The notes beneath the pieces were generated by a model. It saw only the letters and a list, made by a program, of their open reading frames with translations, was not told where the DNA came from and did not search any database. Positions 4,706 through 33,007 of a DNA stretch of 39,892 nucleotides are shown piece after piece. The position numbers and the translations under genes were made by a program. The stretch's first letter is position 1, and the number at the start of each line of letters is the position of its first letter. Source of the stretch: a virus; the IMG/VR virus record IMGVR_UViG_3300042293_000369, positions 1 to 39,892 of that record, one strand, 5' to 3'.

Positions 4706-5394
4706 AGTGATAACGTATTATAGTATTCTCTTGCCTTAATAATCTTGCCTTGCAACTTCTCCATCAACACGGCATCATAGTCAAAGTTAAACACTTTGAT
4801 ACGCTTTTCAATAGGTAGTTCAAGTATGATGTCATTGTTACGTTGGATCTGCTGACATTGAGCAATATAATCTTCGTTCTCATAGTTACGTCCAAACTTC
4901 CACGCAAGACGTTCACATTCGGCTATAACCATCTCCTTCGTATTAGGTACAAGCGCATATATCAACCGATACTTGTGAACTCCTGTTAACTTCATATAAC
5001 ATTGCGCTTGGACTTCATACATTGTAGTTGGTTCGGCTTCAAAAAACGTCCTTAATGACCACGAAGTCTTAATATCTTCCACCGCATCCGTGAGGATGAT
5101 GTCAGGTGTACCAATGATGAACTCATCTTGTAACTTTTCACGATTCTTGGTTCTAAAAGCACCGCCAAGCACATCTTGAACTAACTGCATAGAATCTTGT
5201 TCCATTGCCAAGCCTTTGTCCATATATTCGTTGTTGACGAACTCACGATATCCGTACTCTTCGTATAGCCACATTAATTCGACCATTGTCTTAGCCGTTG
5301 CCGACAAGTTACCTGCGTCCTTATCCGCTTTCAGTTTCGGTTCAGTTAGTAATGCACCTGCAGAACTACATCTTAATAGTAATCGCTTATCCAT
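4702..5394 (-). CDS. YqaJ-like PD-(D/E)XK exonuclease
   Basis: The 230-aa product looks like a phage recombination exonuclease that resects double-stranded DNA ends. The catalytic core is visible: E65, GTPD with D98, DIK with D107 and K109, and the QxxxY motif Q129-Y133 that is typical of this nuclease class. Length fits YqaJ/lambda-exonuclease-type proteins. It is co-directional with the annealing protein upstream (8-nt overlap), the classic exonuclease-annealase pair for single-strand-annealing recombination. Catalytic residues are seen; processivity and polarity are family knowledge. Confidence 0.8.
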   Translation of the reverse strand: MDKRLLLRCSSAGALLTEPKLKADKDAGNLSATAKTMVELMWLYEEYGYREFVNNEYMDKGLAMEQDSMQLVQDVLGGAFRTKNREKLQDEFIIGTPDIILTDAVEDIKTSWSLRTFFEAEPTTMYEVQAQCYMKLTGVHKYRLIYALVPNTKEMVIAECERLAWKFGRNYENEDYIAQCQQIQRNNDIILELPIEKRIKVFNFDYDAVLMEKLQGKIIKAREYYNTLSL

Positions 5395-6073
5395 TTAGTA
5401 ACGCCTCCTTCGTATAATATTGTGAAGTTAATCCAAGTGTTTGAGCAACATCACGAACGGATGTTAAGTCTGTAATATTCAAGCATTGTTCGATGAACTT
5501 TGATACTCGCTCCTTCTCTTTAGCATCGTTAATCTTATCGTATGATAGCAACTCCGTATCACCTGTAAACGCTATCACATCCTTGCGGTTCAAGTTCGCA
5601 CCAAACAAGTCACCGAAGTGGTCACAAGCATCTTTAATAGCGATTGTCTTTGCGATTGGTAGTGCCATCATTACCGCACCTTTCCCCACGTTAGACATAT
5701 CCATTTGCAACGAACCGCTACCTGCTTTCGTTTGTAGTTCCTGCGCCCCCACACCATCGTGGAATTCCATCGTATTTGTGGCAGGATTCAAGTAATGCAC
5801 TCTAACCGTTACCTCAACCGCATTCATCAGCATACCAGTCTTCAAGACCTCAATGGAATACTTTTTAAAGCATCTACGAAGCAAGTATTCGACCTTATCA
5901 ATCGGCAGGTAGTTATATCCCTTGATGAATGGATGTTGCTTAACCCAAGCACTCGGAGGCGGTGTAGCAAGTACCACGTTGAGTTGCTCAAGTGGTATTG
6001 CTACATCAAGTTGTTTGAATAGCGAGGTGATAGTCGGCTTAGTTGCCTTGACTAAGTTAGTGTTATTAGTCAT
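5387..6073 (-). CDS. Rad52-like single-strand annealing protein (putative)
   Basis: The 228-aa product most likely anneals single-stranded DNA in phage recombination. Evidence is the FIKGYNYLPIDKVEYLLRRC block (residues 49-68), a pattern seen in Rad52/22-type phage annealases, followed by beta strands and a glycine-rich segment. The gene sits directly before the YqaJ-like exonuclease with an 8-nt ATGGATAA overlap. RecT or Erf-type families are alternatives, because these annealases are very divergent. The function rests about equally on motif and context. Confidence 0.6.
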   Translation of the reverse strand: MTNNTNLVKATKPTITSLFKQLDVAIPLEQLNVVLATPPPSAWVKQHPFIKGYNYLPIDKVEYLLRRCFKKYSIEVLKTGMLMNAVEVTVRVHYLNPATNTMEFHDGVGAQELQTKAGSGSLQMDMSNVGKGAVMMALPIAKTIAIKDACDHFGDLFGANLNRKDVIAFTGDTELLSYDKINDAKEKERVSKFIEQCLNITDLTSVRDVAQTLGLTSQYYTKEALLNG

Positions 6074-27475: not shown

Positions 27476-28303
27476 TTAAATGAATTTAATTTTTGAATAA
27501 TCTTTGTTTCGTTCCGTTTGAGTGACCGTAGTCGGCTCTATAATAGTCTGAGTGACTTTAGTCGGCTCAGTATATATTCGTGTTGCATCGTTACTACCAC
27601 CTGCAATAACCATACTTCCTTCCTTGTGTATCTTCAACTCTTCTACACCAAAGAAGTATCCTTGTCCCTTCACTACATCGGCATTGGCAATCTCGCCTAT
27701 GCGACTATCGTAGTACCTCTTGTTCTCTGCATACATCTTATCCATTGAATCTATACCCATCTGCACCTTAACGTACTGCATACGGATACTATTCTCTAAC
27801 TCGGGATCGGATTCAATCATATCTAACGCTAACTGATTCGTAATCTTAGCCTTGTCTATGGCAAAGACTAACGCTTCCGTCTGCCCTTCATACTCCTTAC
27901 CTACAATAGACCAATCAACAGGTTCAACCATCATTTCTACGTTCTTCTTCGATGCAATGATGCCTGATAGTGATAGGTTATGGTCGGCACAATAATAAAC
28001 TTTACCTTGTTGCTCCTTAACCGTCTTAGTGAAACAACCATCGAAGTGAACGTCATCGTGGCTATCCATATACCTTGTAGTACTGATGATAGGATAGATA
28101 TAGTTCTCCTTAGTGGCGAATCCTATACCCTTAGTAGCTTCCTTAGTGTTGTGAGACTTACCAATCGTAGTAGACTTATCACAACCCTTGTATACGTTAG
28201 CCGTCTTGAACTCAATGATGTCCATCTCGGAATCCTTCAATGCCTTAAACAACTCCTCTTTGGAAGTGAACGTGCGTGATGGGAAATAATGTGACTTAAT
28301 CAT
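27476..28303 (-). CDS. Prohead maturation protease (HK97 family)
   Basis: The 275-aa product lies between portal and capsid and probably cuts the capsid delta domain during head maturation. The likely catalytic His is in YCADHNLSLSG (near residue 103), and the Ser of ENSIRMQYVKVQMG is the candidate nucleophile, spaced as in this serine-protease family. The C-terminal 40 residues contain an imperfect Thr-rich repeat (PTKVTQTIIEPTTVTQTE). Family by position plus motifs. Confidence 0.75.
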   Translation of the reverse strand: MIKSHYFPSRTFTSKEELFKALKDSEMDIIEFKTANVYKGCDKSTTIGKSHNTKEATKGIGFATKENYIYPIISTTRYMDSHDDVHFDGCFTKTVKEQQGKVYYCADHNLSLSGIIASKKNVEMMVEPVDWSIVGKEYEGQTEALVFAIDKAKITNQLALDMIESDPELENSIRMQYVKVQMGIDSMDKMYAENKRYYDSRIGEIANADVVKGQGYFFGVEELKIHKEGSMVIAGGSNDATRIYTEPTKVTQTIIEPTTVTQTERNKDYSKIKFI

Positions 28304-28315
28304 TTTAATATCGTT

Positions 28316-29797
28316 TTATGCTCCTTGAGTGCTTTGAGTTTGAGTTCCGCTAGACGTTTGATTTCCTGTAACTGTTGCTTCGTTAGTGGCTGTTCCGCTA
28401 CCTTGCGTTGTTGTGTTGTTTGTTCCATTGCTTGTGTTGTTAAAGAACTCAGGATAGTCTTGTCGTATCTGCCAAGCATACATATCGCTATATGGCTCTG
28501 ATACTTCGTGATACCCTATACTTACTAAGAATTGGTTATAAGTAATACCATTAGAGTTAAACTCCAATGTCGCTGCTTCGATGTTTAACTTCCTTACCTC
28601 TGCTCTTGCCTTGATGTCATCTTGTAAGGCTGCAACGTGGTCGAAACAAGTCACATACTCAACACCATTGATGTCACCATACAAACACTCGTTAAACTGA
28701 GTGTCCATATTCTTACTCTCAGGGATGATGAAGTTCTGATACAATGTCTTACCTGCACTTGCACCATTAGTGAACGTAGTACCCTTATCCTTACCAAACA
28801 AGTCAAACGGATAACCCATACCATCGCATAGGATGGCAGCGTTAGCGGTTCGTAACTCAACCATCTGCAACTCACTAACTGGATACATCATATGTTCCCA
28901 CTTCAACGTAGCATCCGTGATGATAGTATCTTCTTGCCCATCACTTGTACCATAAGACTTGAACGCACGATGTAACTCTCTACGTTCCTTGCTACCAATC
29001 GGTAACGTACTGATGGTATCTCTTGCTTGATTCGCTAAGATACCCAATGGTTTAGAGATGATACGACCTTCCGTCTTGTATGACTTGATGATGTTGTTGA
29101 TAGGGAACTGCAACGATGATACCCTTGAGCAAGGTAGGTAACTATTATCTCTTAGAGGTGTTGTATCCGTGAAGATGTATACGTCCTCCTTCTTGATGGT
29201 GTACTTCACGTTATCTCTACGCAAGGTAACCGATTCAATGAGGTTGCTGATGTTATCCGTGTACATCATATTACCCTTCTTGAACTTAATCTCCGTTGAG
29301 TGTGGAGGAAGTACCCATAGTGCGCTTATCTCAGTACCAAACTCATACCCTTCAGGGATAATACGCAAGACAGGACAATAACCAAATGCCATTATGTAGA
29401 ACTTCAACTGCGCCCTAAACGCTTCTCCATTCTGCAATACATTAGGATGTTCCATCAACGTCTGCCAACGCTTATCTTGACCTTTAACCTTGTTGCGTGT
29501 TGACTTAGATAACACCTCTACGATACCATTAACGTATGCGTTAGACTTGCTATGTAAGATTGCTCCGATCTGAGGACAATCCGTAACCGCTTTAATAATT
29601 TCTTGGTCTGATGATACGCTGAAGATGTTATCCGTAAGGTTCATATAGTCAGGAAAACTAAATTCGCCTGGTCTTATACCCTCATCCAATCTTCCATAGA
29701 ATGGAGACAATCCTGAAACTGTCTTTAATGCAGAATCACCTCCAAATATTGAAGGTACTATACTCCTAATCTTTGTTAACAAACTAGACTTAGCCAA
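28316..29797 (-). CDS. Portal protein
   Basis: The 493-aa product is the portal through which DNA enters the capsid. Size and context are typical, directly after the terminase and before the protease. Visible portal features are SNAYVNGIVEVL, a WVLPPHSTEIKF strand, NNIIKSYKTEGRIISKPLGI (spine region) and DLFGKDKGTTFTNGASAGKT. The C-terminal 35 residues are a Gln/Thr/Gly/Ser tail of low complexity. The portal family is clear, but which subfamily is not. Confidence 0.85.
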   Translation of the reverse strand: MAKSSLLTKIRSIVPSIFGGDSALKTVSGLSPFYGRLDEGIRPGEFSFPDYMNLTDNIFSVSSDQEIIKAVTDCPQIGAILHSKSNAYVNGIVEVLSKSTRNKVKGQDKRWQTLMEHPNVLQNGEAFRAQLKFYIMAFGYCPVLRIIPEGYEFGTEISALWVLPPHSTEIKFKKGNMMYTDNISNLIESVTLRRDNVKYTIKKEDVYIFTDTTPLRDNSYLPCSRVSSLQFPINNIIKSYKTEGRIISKPLGILANQARDTISTLPIGSKERRELHRAFKSYGTSDGQEDTIITDATLKWEHMMYPVSELQMVELRTANAAILCDGMGYPFDLFGKDKGTTFTNGASAGKTLYQNFIIPESKNMDTQFNECLYGDINGVEYVTCFDHVAALQDDIKARAEVRKLNIEAATLEFNSNGITYNQFLVSIGYHEVSEPYSDMYAWQIRQDYPEFFNNTSNGTNNTTTQGSGTATNEATVTGNQTSSGTQTQSTQGA

Positions 29798-29893
29798 CCT
29801 TTTCGTTTGAACCTATATTCCTCGTGGCTGATTTACATCGCTACTTTGCGGATATAGGCTGGTTAATTTCTATGAGTTCGTCTCATTTCTTTG

Positions 29894-29922
29894 CAAATAT
29901 ACGAAATATTTACGTCAACAAA
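29894..29922 (-). promoter_or_regulatory. Candidate promoter upstream of the portal gene
   Basis: On the minus strand TTTG (29919-29922) is followed after 17 nt by TATATTTG (29894-29901). This is close to the Bacteroidota consensus but 2 nt short in spacing. It could add transcripts for the portal and head genes about 95 nt downstream. Confidence 0.4.
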
Positions 29923-29930
29923 TGTTTTTT

Positions 29931-30026
29931 TTACAATATTGATAAAATATAATAGAAAGATACAAGTATTAATCCTAATACTGCTAATCCTACCATTACA
30001 TCTACCTTTGGTTCATCTATATGCAT
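29931..30026 (-). CDS. Small membrane protein (31 aa) between terminase and portal
   Basis: The frame from the ATG at 30026 to the stop at 29931 encodes MHIDEPKVDV followed by one membrane helix (VGLAVLGLILVSFYYILSI). It is short and supported only by its coherent topology and position. The role is unknown. Confidence 0.4.
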   Translation of the reverse strand: MHIDEPKVDVMVGLAVLGLILVSFYYILSIL

Positions 30027-30085
30027 AGTTTATATTTTTCTTCCTTATCAATAGTTAACTCCTTCACCACATCTGCCGACCTTCC

Positions 30086-32224
30086 TTAAAACCAATATCC
30101 GTGTACTTGTATCATATATCTAACACAATCTATGCAGTTATGGACTAAAACTCCATTAGCAAAATATTCGTGTTCTTCTTCAATCATTAAATCGTATACA
30201 TTATCAAGATATTTTTCTCCTTGCTCTAAGCGCACGAGCCTTGCAGTTTTGATGGCAGTATTTTGTGATTCCTGTGGTTCTTGAAGTATATTCTTTACCG
30301 CATTGATGACAGTTGTATTTTTTATACTCTGCTTTATCCCAAGCCATTTTAGCAATTTTTCTATGAAAATCAAGTCCTGCTTCTGTGCCGTGCCATTTGT
30401 TTGCAAACTCTCTGGCGTAATCCATTCTTGCCCTAAGTTCTTCTTTATCCCTTGATGACATATGTTGAGACAAATGCTTACTCGCTTCAATACATTCCAA
30501 ATTGGATATATTATTATTTTGCTGATTGCCATCAAGATGATGTATATGATAACCTTTAGGTATTTTGCCATTAAAGAATTTCCAAACTTCGGTATGAAGT
30601 CTTGAGCAACCCTTTGAAAAATACTTTTCTCCCTTGTACAAGTAGTATGTTTTTCCATTAAATACTTGGTAAGGTATAGTTCCATACCCTCCTTCAATGA
30701 TGCAATCTCTATCCATCCTATTGATGTCTTTATCTTGTGATTGTATGTGCATATAATCTCTGTTTTACTCTTATCCTCAAAGATAAGACTATACTTGCAT
30801 ACCTCCTTGCGTCCATTGTCAAACTTATGCACAACTTGATGCCATCCGCTACTCGTAAGTACCAAGTCCCCTTGCACCATACTTTGTATTGGCATCATAC
30901 CATAAGGTGTTGTAATGAGTGTACTACCTACGAAGCAATGGTTATGAGCATCAATCGGCTTCCCACTTGGCTTCCCATCCTTATCTACCGCCCATACATA
31001 CTGCGAGAACTCAGCAATGAGGTTCGGTGAGTCACTCGTAACGTGAATCTTCATACTTAGTAGCTTATCTATACCACCCTTGATACTCTTGTTAGGTGCA
31101 GGTCTCATATTCCTAAACCCAAGTGATGCGTTAGGATACCTCTCCCTATCTTCCTCACTCAAGTACTTCGATATACCGAACCGCAACTCACGGATGGTAT
31201 CAGGCTCGGCACAGTCAGCTACGATGAGTGTATCTTCCAACATACCTATCTCATCCAACTTCTTACCCAACTCTACCAACGCAAGTGGCTCGTAGTTCAA
31301 CTCCTTTAGGTAAACGTGGTCTCCCTTCACCTTCATCCACACGGTTGCAGCAGGACTTGCCGTACCGAAGTCTTGCCCATAGCACTCCGCATAGTCCAAC
31401 TCCAAGAACTCTTCAGGTGTGATGATGTCATAGTTCTTGAATATCTGACCCTTCAACCCTGTCGTAGAGTAACCCTTGATACTAGTCAAGTAGTGATGTA
31501 GGTTATACAAGTGCGAGTCAGGGTCACCATACGCTTCATACTGCCGAACAGTCTTATCTGGCAGGAACGTATTATCCTTGTAGTTACATTGTATCGTTAC
31601 CAATCCGTGTACATCCTTAGGCATCAGCTTGAAGTACCCACTTCTCTCCGTATCCGTTAACTGAGGTTCATCCTCTTCGGTGATAGGTATAGCGTTGAAG
31701 TACCTTCGCACGATCCAATGGTAGATGTCAGGTGTGTTCATAATAAAGATGATGTACGACCCACGCTTCCTGATACTGTCCGAGAACGTGTTGAACTTAT
31801 CCTCATCTCTTATATCTTCGCCCTCCTCTATACACGCTATGTCTACGTTCGATACCGACTTCATATTCGCCTTCTTGTCTAACGTACTCGCCCTAAACCC
31901 CTTAGTGAACACCGCCATCTCGCCAGTCTTGTTGTTCTTGATACCATTCTCCAACCTTGAGAACTGCTTATCCAACACCGACTGCTTGTTAGCCGTATCC
32001 CATCTAAGTAGTACCTCGTTCAAGATACTCTCCTTAATTCCTTCCTTCTCATCACGCAACACTTGACAACGCTTACCCTTGATAGCTGCGGAATAGGCTA
32101 TAAACTTGGACACTTCATAAGTCTTACCGCCACCACGACCACCGATACAAACTACTATCTCGGTATCTTCAGCTAACTCATACAAAGGTGCAAACTTGGG
32201 AGTTCTCTTAACTATTACGTCCAT
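30086..32224 (-). CDS. Large terminase subunit containing an intein
   Basis: The 712-aa precursor is the phage packaging motor and nuclease. ATPase motifs: Walker A GGRGGGKT at 28-35, Walker B ending in E133-E134, and coupling motif FIMNTP at 160-165. Nuclease residues: D285 (GQDFG), D337 (VADC) and D699 (CIDCVRY). An intein interrupts the gene between H429 and C697 (DAHNH, then CIDCVRY). Spliced, the protein would be 445 aa, a normal terminase length. Without splicing, the last acidic residue would be separated from the rest of the nuclease core. A TACATTTG box lies 5 nt before the start (32229-32236). Confidence 0.9.
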   Translation of the reverse strand: MDVIVKRTPKFAPLYELAEDTEIVVCIGGRGGGKTYEVSKFIAYSAAIKGKRCQVLRDEKEGIKESILNEVLLRWDTANKQSVLDKQFSRLENGIKNNKTGEMAVFTKGFRASTLDKKANMKSVSNVDIACIEEGEDIRDEDKFNTFSDSIRKRGSYIIFIMNTPDIYHWIVRRYFNAIPITEEDEPQLTDTERSGYFKLMPKDVHGLVTIQCNYKDNTFLPDKTVRQYEAYGDPDSHLYNLHHYLTSIKGYSTTGLKGQIFKNYDIITPEEFLELDYAECYGQDFGTASPAATVWMKVKGDHVYLKELNYEPLALVELGKKLDEIGMLEDTLIVADCAEPDTIRELRFGISKYLSEEDRERYPNASLGFRNMRPAPNKSIKGGIDKLLSMKIHVTSDSPNLIAEFSQYVWAVDKDGKPSGKPIDAHNHCFVGSTLITTPYGMMPIQSMVQGDLVLTSSGWHQVVHKFDNGRKEVCKYSLIFEDKSKTEIICTYNHKIKTSIGWIEIASLKEGMELYLTKYLMEKHTTCTREKSIFQRVAQDFIPKFGNSLMAKYLKVIIYIILMAISKIIIYPIWNVLKRVSICLNICHQGIKKNLGQEWITPESLQTNGTAQKQDLIFIEKLLKWLGIKQSIKNTTVINAVKNILQEPQESQNTAIKTARLVRLEQGEKYLDNVYDLMIEEEHEYFANGVLVHNCIDCVRYMIQVHGYWF
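30137..30937 (-). other. Intein (self-splicing protein element) in the large terminase
   Basis: The 267-residue element spans precursor residues 430-696. It starts at C430 (block A, CFVGSTLITTPYG), has the block B TxxH motif T493-H496 (TYNH) and block F (VYDLMIEEEHEYFANGVLVHN, split here as VYDLMIEEEHEY plus FANGVLVHN), and ends H695-N696 before the native C697. These are the residues for protein splicing: N-terminal Cys, block B Thr/His, terminal His-Asn and +1 Cys. The middle of the intein frame (about 520-672) has no recognisable domain, because the DNA there encodes an HNH endonuclease in a different frame. Confidence 0.88.
30204..30752 (-). CDS. HNH homing endonuclease nested out of frame in the terminase intein
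   Basis: The 182-aa ORF is read in the -1 frame relative to the terminase. It carries a full HNH motif: RLHTEVWKFFNG (51-62), GYHIHHLDGN (67-76) and ISNLECIEASKHLSQH (82-97). A zinc ribbon follows at the C-terminus (C148, C151, C166, C170). It occupies the slot between blocks B and F where an intein endonuclease normally lies in frame. The start could be 30752 or the later Met at 30716, because the first residues overlap block B. It probably cuts intein-free terminase genes to spread the element. Confidence 0.8.
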   Translation of the reverse strand: MHIQSQDKDINRMDRDCIIEGGYGTIPYQVFNGKTYYLYKGEKYFSKGCSRLHTEVWKFFNGKIPKGYHIHHLDGNQQNNNISNLECIEASKHLSQHMSSRDKEELRARMDYAREFANKWHGTEAGLDFHRKIAKMAWDKAEYKKYNCHQCGKEYTSRTTGITKYCHQNCKARALRARRKIS

Positions 32225-32618
32225 AATGCAAATGTACTATGTTATGTTGTTATGTTGTTATGTTATGGTAACAAGGTTATGTATGGTATGGGTATGGTAA
32301 ACATATTACGTTTTTTTATATATGTTCAAAATTTAGCATAAAAAGTAGGATAGGGGGATACCCCCACCCTCTTTTTCTTTTTACGTTGAACTTTTGCTTA
32401 TCCTAATTCAGTGTCCATAGTCCTATAATATTTATTATGTTAAGTAGAATTTTAGCCTATGCGTTTATTGTAATAGTATTACTATCATTTAAGATAGTAC
32501 AAACGCTCCCCTACCCTACCCTACCCTATGATATCAGTATCTTTAAGGTAGTTATAAATATAATATTCTAATTCCTTAAGGTAGTTTAGAGTAGTATTTA
32601 TATATATATATTAATACC
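32225..32618. other. Intergenic region between terminase genes, rich in short repeats
   Basis: No convincing gene lies in these 394 nt. Features seen: repeated GTTATG units at 32241-32280; a GGGGG-ATA-CCCCC hairpin at 32353-32365; an inverted repeat TACTATC/GATAGTA at 32480-32499; four tandem CCCTA units at 32509-32528; and two copies of TTAAGGTAGTT at 32543-32553 and 32576-32586, 33 bp apart. Position next to both terminase genes makes this a candidate packaging (pac/cos) or control region. Confidence 0.5.
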
Positions 32619-32936
32619 TTATTCAAACGATATATTTTCAATCACTACGTTAGCATTCACGTCTACCTGTGACCTGGTCAACTTCGGTTTATAGTACTCA
32701 ATAATCGCATTGAAAGCTACTATCTTATCCCTTGGTCCTAGTTGATTCATCGCCTCCATATAGTCCTCAACTCCTTTCGTGGTTAGCCATTCACCGAACT
32801 TCTCCCAACTGGTTAGACCTACCTTTTCAAGTACCTTAGTCTTATGGTGCTTAGTACCCTTAGCCTTTAGTCCTTTGTGACCTGGTTTAAAGGACGTTGA
32901 TACAGGTTCTCTCTTTCTTACTTTAGTCTCTGTCAT
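32619..32936 (-). CDS. Small terminase subunit (putative)
   Basis: The 105-aa product has a basic N-terminus (KVRKREPVSTSFKPGHKGLK) and a C-terminal helical part (RDKIVAFNAIIEYYKPKLTR) like the DNA-recognition/oligomerisation part of small terminases in Bacteroidota phages. It precedes the large terminase, though with a 394-nt repeat-rich gap. It is the first gene of the late operon: a strong terminator (32982-33007) lies upstream and a TACCTTTG box at 32959-32966. Assignment is mainly positional. Confidence 0.65.
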   Translation of the reverse strand: MTETKVRKREPVSTSFKPGHKGLKAKGTKHHKTKVLEKVGLTSWEKFGEWLTTKGVEDYMEAMNQLGPRDKIVAFNAIIEYYKPKLTRSQVDVNANVVIENISFE

Positions 32937-32958
32937 TTTCTGTCATAATTGATTTATG

Positions 32959-32966
32959 CAAAGGTA
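32959..32966 (-). promoter_or_regulatory. TAnnTTTG box upstream of the small terminase
   Basis: TACCTTTG on the minus strand fits the Bacteroidota -7 element and lies 23 nt before the small terminase start and just past the early terminator. No -33 TTTG is visible at normal spacing, so an activator may be needed if it is the late promoter. Confidence 0.35.
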
Positions 32967-32981
32967 GTGACATATAGGCAT

Positions 32982-33007
32982 AAAAAAAGCCCTCAATTAA
33001 GAGGGCT
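32982..33007 (-). terminator. Strong intrinsic terminator before the late operon
   Basis: On the minus strand AGCCCTC, a 6-nt loop and GAGGGCT are followed by a run of seven T (32982-32988). This is a textbook rho-independent terminator closing the 35090-33029 operon. Confidence 0.85.

Follow-up and report, generated by a model that had tools for sequence, protein, structure and literature searches.

An HNH endonuclease gene in an alternate reading frame of a phage terminase intein

Can an intein carry a homing endonuclease that is not fused to it? The question is raised by a phage terminase gene in which an intein and an HNH endonuclease are read from the same DNA in different frames. With such an arrangement, the two products can be separately made and regulated, and each can evolve alone. 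The locus lies in a window of 39,892 nt, which is the whole stretch of DNA analyzed here (IMG/VR virus record IMGVR_UViG_3300042293_000369, positions 1 to 39,892); all coordinates below refer to it unless a locus is named, and all features of the locus lie on the minus strand.

The terminase intein and its second reading frame

The large terminase (TerL) and its intein form one ORF of 712 aa (30086-32224) without internal stops. The TerL N-extein (429 aa, 30938..32224) comprises the ATPase domain together with the larger part of the RNase H-like nuclease domain, matches Pfam Terminase_3 (4.4e-21) and NCBIfam phage_term_2 (2.8e-24), and is 96-99% identical to its counterparts in sister contigs. 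It is followed by an intein of 267 aa (30137..30937) running from Cys1 to Asn267, with Cys+1 next to it, whose borders are given by invariant residues and by exact empty sites. The insertion point is a conserved motif of the TerL nuclease domain (NH|C...DxxRY), here between NH and CIDCVRY, and the intein itself has the ends C..HN. The short C-extein CIDCVRYMIQVHGYWF (30089..30136, with the stop codon at 30086-30088) consists of the residues that stand directly after NH in intein-free alleles. Between the terminase and portal genes lies a spacer (29798-30085) whose length and sequence differ between sister contigs that are 98% identical on either side of it. A terminator-like hairpin with a T-rich tail (32347-32370) precedes terL on its coding strand.

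The sequence-only reading had assigned the splicing blocks of the intein to the terminase frame, and there they are: C1, T64xxH67, H266-N267 and C+1 are all present and invariant or nearly so. Among them, C1, the block-B H67 and N267 are invariant in an alignment of 39 inteins, while the block-B motif TxxH (T64-H67, 30737..30748) is invariant in two alignments. Profile scores of the terminase ORF were 26.8 bits for intein_Cterm (TIGR01443), exceeding the cut-off of 15.6, and 31.2 bits for Intein_splicing, slightly below the cut-off of 35.8 (Pfam/NCBIfam). The AlphaFold model of the terminase-frame product is in agreement: a Hint fold predicted with confidence encloses a disordered loop. The N-terminal half of the predicted fold (residues 1-92, 30662..30937) and its C-terminal half (residues 226-267, IKTARL...NVYDL...HEYFANGVLVHN, 30137..30262, the part matched by TIGR01443) have a pLDDT of ~95, whereas residues 95-225 (30263..30655), encoded by the HNH core DNA in the terminase frame, are mostly below 50. 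The best Foldseek match of the intein model was the gp41-1 intein 6qaz (E 1.4e-7, TM for the target 0.79). The window intein is a single ORF and is thus unlike a fractured-gene split intein. An intron in place of an intein was considered and rejected: there was no Rfam match to a group I/II intron RNA core at the gathering threshold within 28000-33000, and the terminase frame is open throughout.

The earlier claim that a separate HNH homing endonuclease gene lies in the other frame of this intein was confirmed as to its architecture, which proved to be that of a large conserved family, and the coordinates given for it were right. The longest ORF of the HNH frame (182 aa, 30204..30752) is in the -1 frame relative to the terminase, and the terminase frame is open across it. 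The ORF matches Pfam HNH_3 with an E value of 8.5e-15, and in a profile search of the PDB its sole match was 1u3e, the homing enzyme I-HmuI (E 3.6e-4). The HNH core motif HIHHLDGNQQNNNISNLE (30492..30545) contains the invariant H60, N68, N72 and L73, followed by a C-terminal zinc ribbon CHQC...CHQNC (30243..30311) with the invariant C136, C139, C154 and C158, an invariance that is partly built in, since YCHQNC partly coincides with the search seed. The AlphaFold model of the HNH-frame product has a mean pLDDT of 89.5 with a zinc-ribbon-like C-terminus; VIA-align matched 73 of its residues to I-HmuI (Z 7.0), while Foldseek alone gave no significant match of this model to the PDB. The catalytic core, together with the sporadic distribution described below, argues for a homing endonuclease.

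The two frames meet at both ends of the overlap. The final zinc-ribbon codons double as a Hint strand, reading HQNCKAR in the HNH frame and IKTARL in the terminase frame, and the ATG at 30716 is contained in GGATGG, a Gly-Trp codon pair of the Hint region. This ATG is the likely start of the gene (170 aa, 30204..30716). The sequence-only reading had named 30752 or 30716 as the start; the latter is supported by a conserved Met, whereas the residues upstream of it, i.e., before Met13 of the longest ORF, are unconserved, which speaks against 30752.

Selection on the two frames and probable initiation of the HNH gene

It had been argued that two frames would seldom remain free of stops over this length by chance, and the shuffling results bear this out. 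With the HNH protein and its codon usage fixed and the synonymous codons shuffled, none of the 2000 shuffles of the window gene had a stop-free terminase frame (~4 stops expected, 0 seen); the third frame of the same gene has 21 stops. The intein frame had no stops in 41 of 41 non-redundant loci, with a summed log10 P of ~-103 that does not allow for relatedness. The +1 register is stop-poor anyway for K/N/E-rich proteins, with 2-4 stops expected in most loci, and the openness of L031, L082 and L083, each taken alone, is not significant. Synonymous shuffling led to the rejection of chance openness.

The homologues were also compared by their substitutions, with the changes between close pairs sorted by effect on each frame relative to opportunity. 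The dN/dS-like ratio was 0.24-0.43 for the HNH frame and 0.98-1.6 for the intein frame, values that rest on few double-synonymous sites and are uncorrected for multiple hits. In the middle of the overlap, the ratios were 0.28-0.35 and 0.92-1.45 (NN/NS), respectively, and the overlap ends that also code for Hint strands gave mixed signals. Purifying selection acts on the HNH protein, with a dN/dS of about 0.3, and the terminase-frame protein in the overlap is approximately neutral save for stop avoidance, the short Hint-fold ends excepted. It follows from the middle-segment ratios that the terminase frame is kept open without its sequence being preserved. The proposal of selection on both frames thus stood for the HNH and failed for the terminase-frame overlap, which is merely stop-free outside the Hint-fold ends. 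This makes the locus a clean natural example of gene overlap: all of the protein-level selection acts on one frame, and the other merely avoids stops.

These data also bear on whether the HNH might be a decayed or unexpressed fossil, or an artefact of assembly, which we regard as scarcely credible. Its frame is under purifying selection, its catalytic and zinc residues are invariant, and the layout recurs in many independent genomes; sequencing or assembly error was rejected because independent contigs and isolate genomes share this layout.

How the HNH is translated can be judged from its start region. In most loci, HNH-frame stops are located 2-15 codons upstream of the conserved Met. Of 95 nested HNH starts, 22 have a Shine-Dalgarno site of at least -7 kcal/mol strength before them, compared with 26 of 380 same-frame control ATGs (p 2.7e-5), an enrichment that stems from part of the nested set, the window HNH start having no such site. 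This is not odd, because the window phage is mostly without them: an SD-like leader (-4 or better) was found in 15% of its 33 genes. Its gene leaders, that of the HNH included, are A-rich (49% A in the leaders vs. 36% overall), and the two traits together point to a host of the Bacteroidota type. The closed HNH frame before the Met, the Shine-Dalgarno enrichment and the A-rich leaders make independent initiation the most economical reading.

If programmed frameshifting by ribosomes reading the terminase frame produced a TerL-HintN-HNH fusion, the HNH would be expected out of frame and downstream of Hint-N, and it is always found there. Such frameshifting is very improbable because both registers exist, so that a -1 shift would be needed in one class and a +1 shift in the other. 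Moreover, the upstream HNH-frame stops leave little room for it, and Shine-Dalgarno sites before many nested starts also speak for initiation at the HNH gene itself.

A sigma-70 scan near the HNH found no more sites than in shuffles. The extended -10-like sequence TGnTAnnnT lies closely upstream of 20 of 95 nested HNH starts (for example L033 2467-2490 and L111 2476-2499) vs. 6 of 380 controls, and of 9 of 10 starts in register 2; from its position, a transcript would be nearly leaderless. It is not claimed as a promoter: it overlaps the conserved D-x-I stretch of Hint, in which ATA is a common Ile codon, and its enrichment may be a coincidence.

Distribution and probable mobility of the nested layout

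A search of viral contigs seeded with the HNH returned 80 loci, and in all 80 the HNH lies wholly within a longer ORF of another frame. The same nested layout was found in three genomes of isolated phages, the third frame being stop-rich both there and in the 80 contig loci; isolates sharing it include Acinetobacter phage Highwayman, Tetrasphaera phage TJE1 and Rhodobacteraceae phage LS06-2018-MD07, the last with a complete genome. The TerL of the contigs sharing the layout ranges in identity from about 20 to 99%. Going by metagenomic titles, which are only as reliable as the underlying bins, the hosts include Bacteroides, Clostridia, Patescibacteria and archaea. Annotation pipelines call a single long terminase at such loci and overlook the endonuclease, as in Acinetobacter phage Highwayman.

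The set was enlarged by profile, and the Hint halves and the HNH were then scored with HMMs. Relative to the HNH, the Hint frame was HNH+1 in 122 loci, HNH+2 in 36 and HNH+0 in none; that is, where the two Hint halves shared a register (158 loci), an HNH fused in frame between them was found in 0. The layout falls outside the canonical definition of a bifunctional intein, in which the endonuclease is fused in frame. A nested HNH within an unbroken TerL-intein ORF was present in 154 loci, the window counted (120 in one register and 34 in the other), besides which there were 14 fractured and 15 free-standing loci and one cut by the contig end. These are counts of loci and not of independent events, and some contigs carry two locus identifiers; the non-redundant set used for trees had 88 + 10 nested members (98, window included), 13 fractured and 14 free-standing. 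The check for homologues with a broken terminase frame came out in favor of the overlap: most stay open, and the broken minority has, by its layout, fractured split inteins and not decayed ones.

Part of the HNH similarity (KYCHQNC, HHxDxN) is the search seed itself, a bias avoided by a second search using the Hint-N half alone. Here, 77 of 79 complete inteins contained a nested HNH, in a single register throughout. The remaining two, L226 and L264, are mini-inteins of ~130 residues without HNH at the same TerL site, and the part that they lack is the low-confidence segment of the window intein model.

The intein appears mobile, because near-identical phages have exact empty sites: L189, L190 and L195, with TerL 96-98% identical to that of the window, are without intein or HNH in the fetched region, have exact junctions and retain the Cys that serves as +1. 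L191-L193 are likewise free of both, with Leu at +1 (NH followed by LIDPMRY; L191 1922-1990, L192 1760-1828, L193 3835-3903). With Leu at this position, splicing through Cys would be impossible, and these alleles may be resistant ones.

Hint and HNH tend to be inherited together across dissimilar terminases. L038 and L086 have TerL 25% identical, Hint 74% and HNH 70%, and overall the pairwise Hint and HNH identities correlate moderately (0.60; partial correlation given TerL, 0.49). The HNH can also move without Hint, as follows from the window and L033, with HNH 48% and Hint 24% identical. On the HNH tree, both registers, fractured genes and free-standing genes beside TerL are intermixed, with at least 22 state changes, 3 of them between registers, on a tree in which many branches are weakly supported. 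The nested HNH of Acinetobacter phage Highwayman groups with a free-standing HNH upstream of the terminase of Acinetobacter phage BP10. From this pattern we infer an independent gene that was repeatedly captured, or released, the direction being unfixed by the tree.

Overall, we lean somewhat toward regarding two-frame inteins as a widespread class. In this class, the endonuclease would never be fused; it would always be a gene of its own in another frame, taken up more than once, and in both registers, from free-standing HNH genes next to the terminase, and the process could instead end in fractured split inteins. Absence of stops would be all that the overlap demands of the intein frame. Such loci provide a natural link between three kinds of element, the free-standing endonuclease, the split intein and the bifunctional intein, whose relationship is usually debated from the endpoints only.

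Another role for an HNH so closely tied to the terminase would be that of a packaging co-factor and not a homing enzyme, as proposed for HK97-like HNH proteins beside terminase; the HK97 HNH cooperates with its terminase (PMC10448857), and free-standing relatives of the window HNH also flank terminase genes. This role is quite unlikely for the window gene, given that the sister phages with 96-98% identical TerL have neither intein nor HNH in the fetched region, that its sporadic presence fits a mobile element, and that I-HmuI, a homing enzyme, is its best relative among solved structures.

Proposed mechanism and known systems

We hold it highly probable that this is a mobile terL intein whose homing endonuclease is a separate HNH gene in an alternate frame of the central loop. 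Translation in the terminase frame would yield TerL-N, Hint-N, an unstructured filler of ~130 residues, Hint-C and TerL-C, the filler being what the wrong frame of the HNH DNA encodes. The Hint domain would then splice the intein out and restore TerL, while a separate ribosome start at ATG 30716 would supply free HNH enzyme. The latter presumably cuts the intein-free terL of co-infecting phages at the conserved nuclease motif, and repair of the cut gene would copy intein and HNH together. The architecture, its conservation, the constraint on the HNH, the neutrality of the filler, the empty sites of sister phages and the co-inheritance of Hint and HNH across dissimilar TerLs are the parts of this scheme that the sequences show.

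The target of the enzyme could also be a different one. If the HNH were a selfish free-standing endonuclease parasitising the intein, it would target mini-inteins or Hint DNA and not intein-free terL, and the nested state would result from HNH homing into an intein. The HNH-less mini-inteins L226 and L264 at the same TerL site fit such a scenario, as do closely related free HNHs beside intein-less TerL (L089, L091, L122, L154, L157, L173) and the mixing of two registers and two Hint lineages on the HNH tree. However, intein-free alleles are devoid of Hint and HNH together, with exact junctions, the Hint and HNH identities remain correlated once TerL is controlled for, and HNH-less inteins are rare (2/79), so parasitism of the intein is a rather unlikely, though not negligible, explanation.

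The sequence-only reading knew of no close description, and this did not hold: out-of-frame HNH insertions have been published for phage DNA methylases, namely the ShiLan domain and the Pacc40 insertion (Arsenault, Gosselin, Gogarten 2025, PMC11855218). Of these, ShiLan, an out-of-frame HNH element without an intein, is the closest precedent in the literature consulted. As in the window, the HNH and a zinc-finger motif of ShiLan and Pacc40 lie in the other frame of an insertion that is open in the host-gene frame, with a patchy distribution and, for Pacc40, free-standing relatives nearby (PMC11855218). They differ in their host gene, and the terL-intein family is far larger and occurs in both registers; moreover, ShiLan has no detectable splicing domain, whereas the window HNH is surrounded by a complete Hint intein (PMC11855218). 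Mycobacteriophage TerL inteins also reside in the large terminase and carry active homing endonucleases; they are sited in the ATPase domain, in contrast to the window intein with its nuclease-domain site and out-of-frame endonuclease (Kelley et al. 2016, PMC5050341). I-HmuI (1U3E) resembles the window HNH in its core, by sequence profile and by fold. It is encoded in a phage group I intron, of which none was found here by Rfam, and the helical middle and zinc ribbon of the window HNH are unmatched to it.

A 2025 preprint by Gosselin, Arsenault and Gogarten (Actinobacteriophage Inteins, Non-Canonical Architecture) is cited beside the statement that actinobacteriophages often have overlapping frames. 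Judging by its title and this citation, it may describe out-of-frame endonucleases in inteins, which would lower the novelty of the architecture. Fractured genes, said to have been described by Dassa et al. in 2009, reportedly consist of a split intein whose halves flank a free-standing homing endonuclease, and gp41-1, the best structural match of the window intein, is a split intein of this kind. The window family shares with them a separate endonuclease gene between Hint-N and Hint-C and includes 14 fractured relatives itself; the window intein differs in being an uninterrupted ORF overlapped by the endonuclease in another frame. In the fractured relatives (L114, L124, L132, L138, L144, L149, L163, L168, L170, L171, L172, L174, L095 and L097), TerL-N with Hint-N, the HNH, and Hint-C (with or without TerL-C) are separate ORFs, and a strong Shine-Dalgarno often precedes the HNH. 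In addition to the HNH in its fractured terminase intein, L163 contains another HNH of the same family at 5255-5774.
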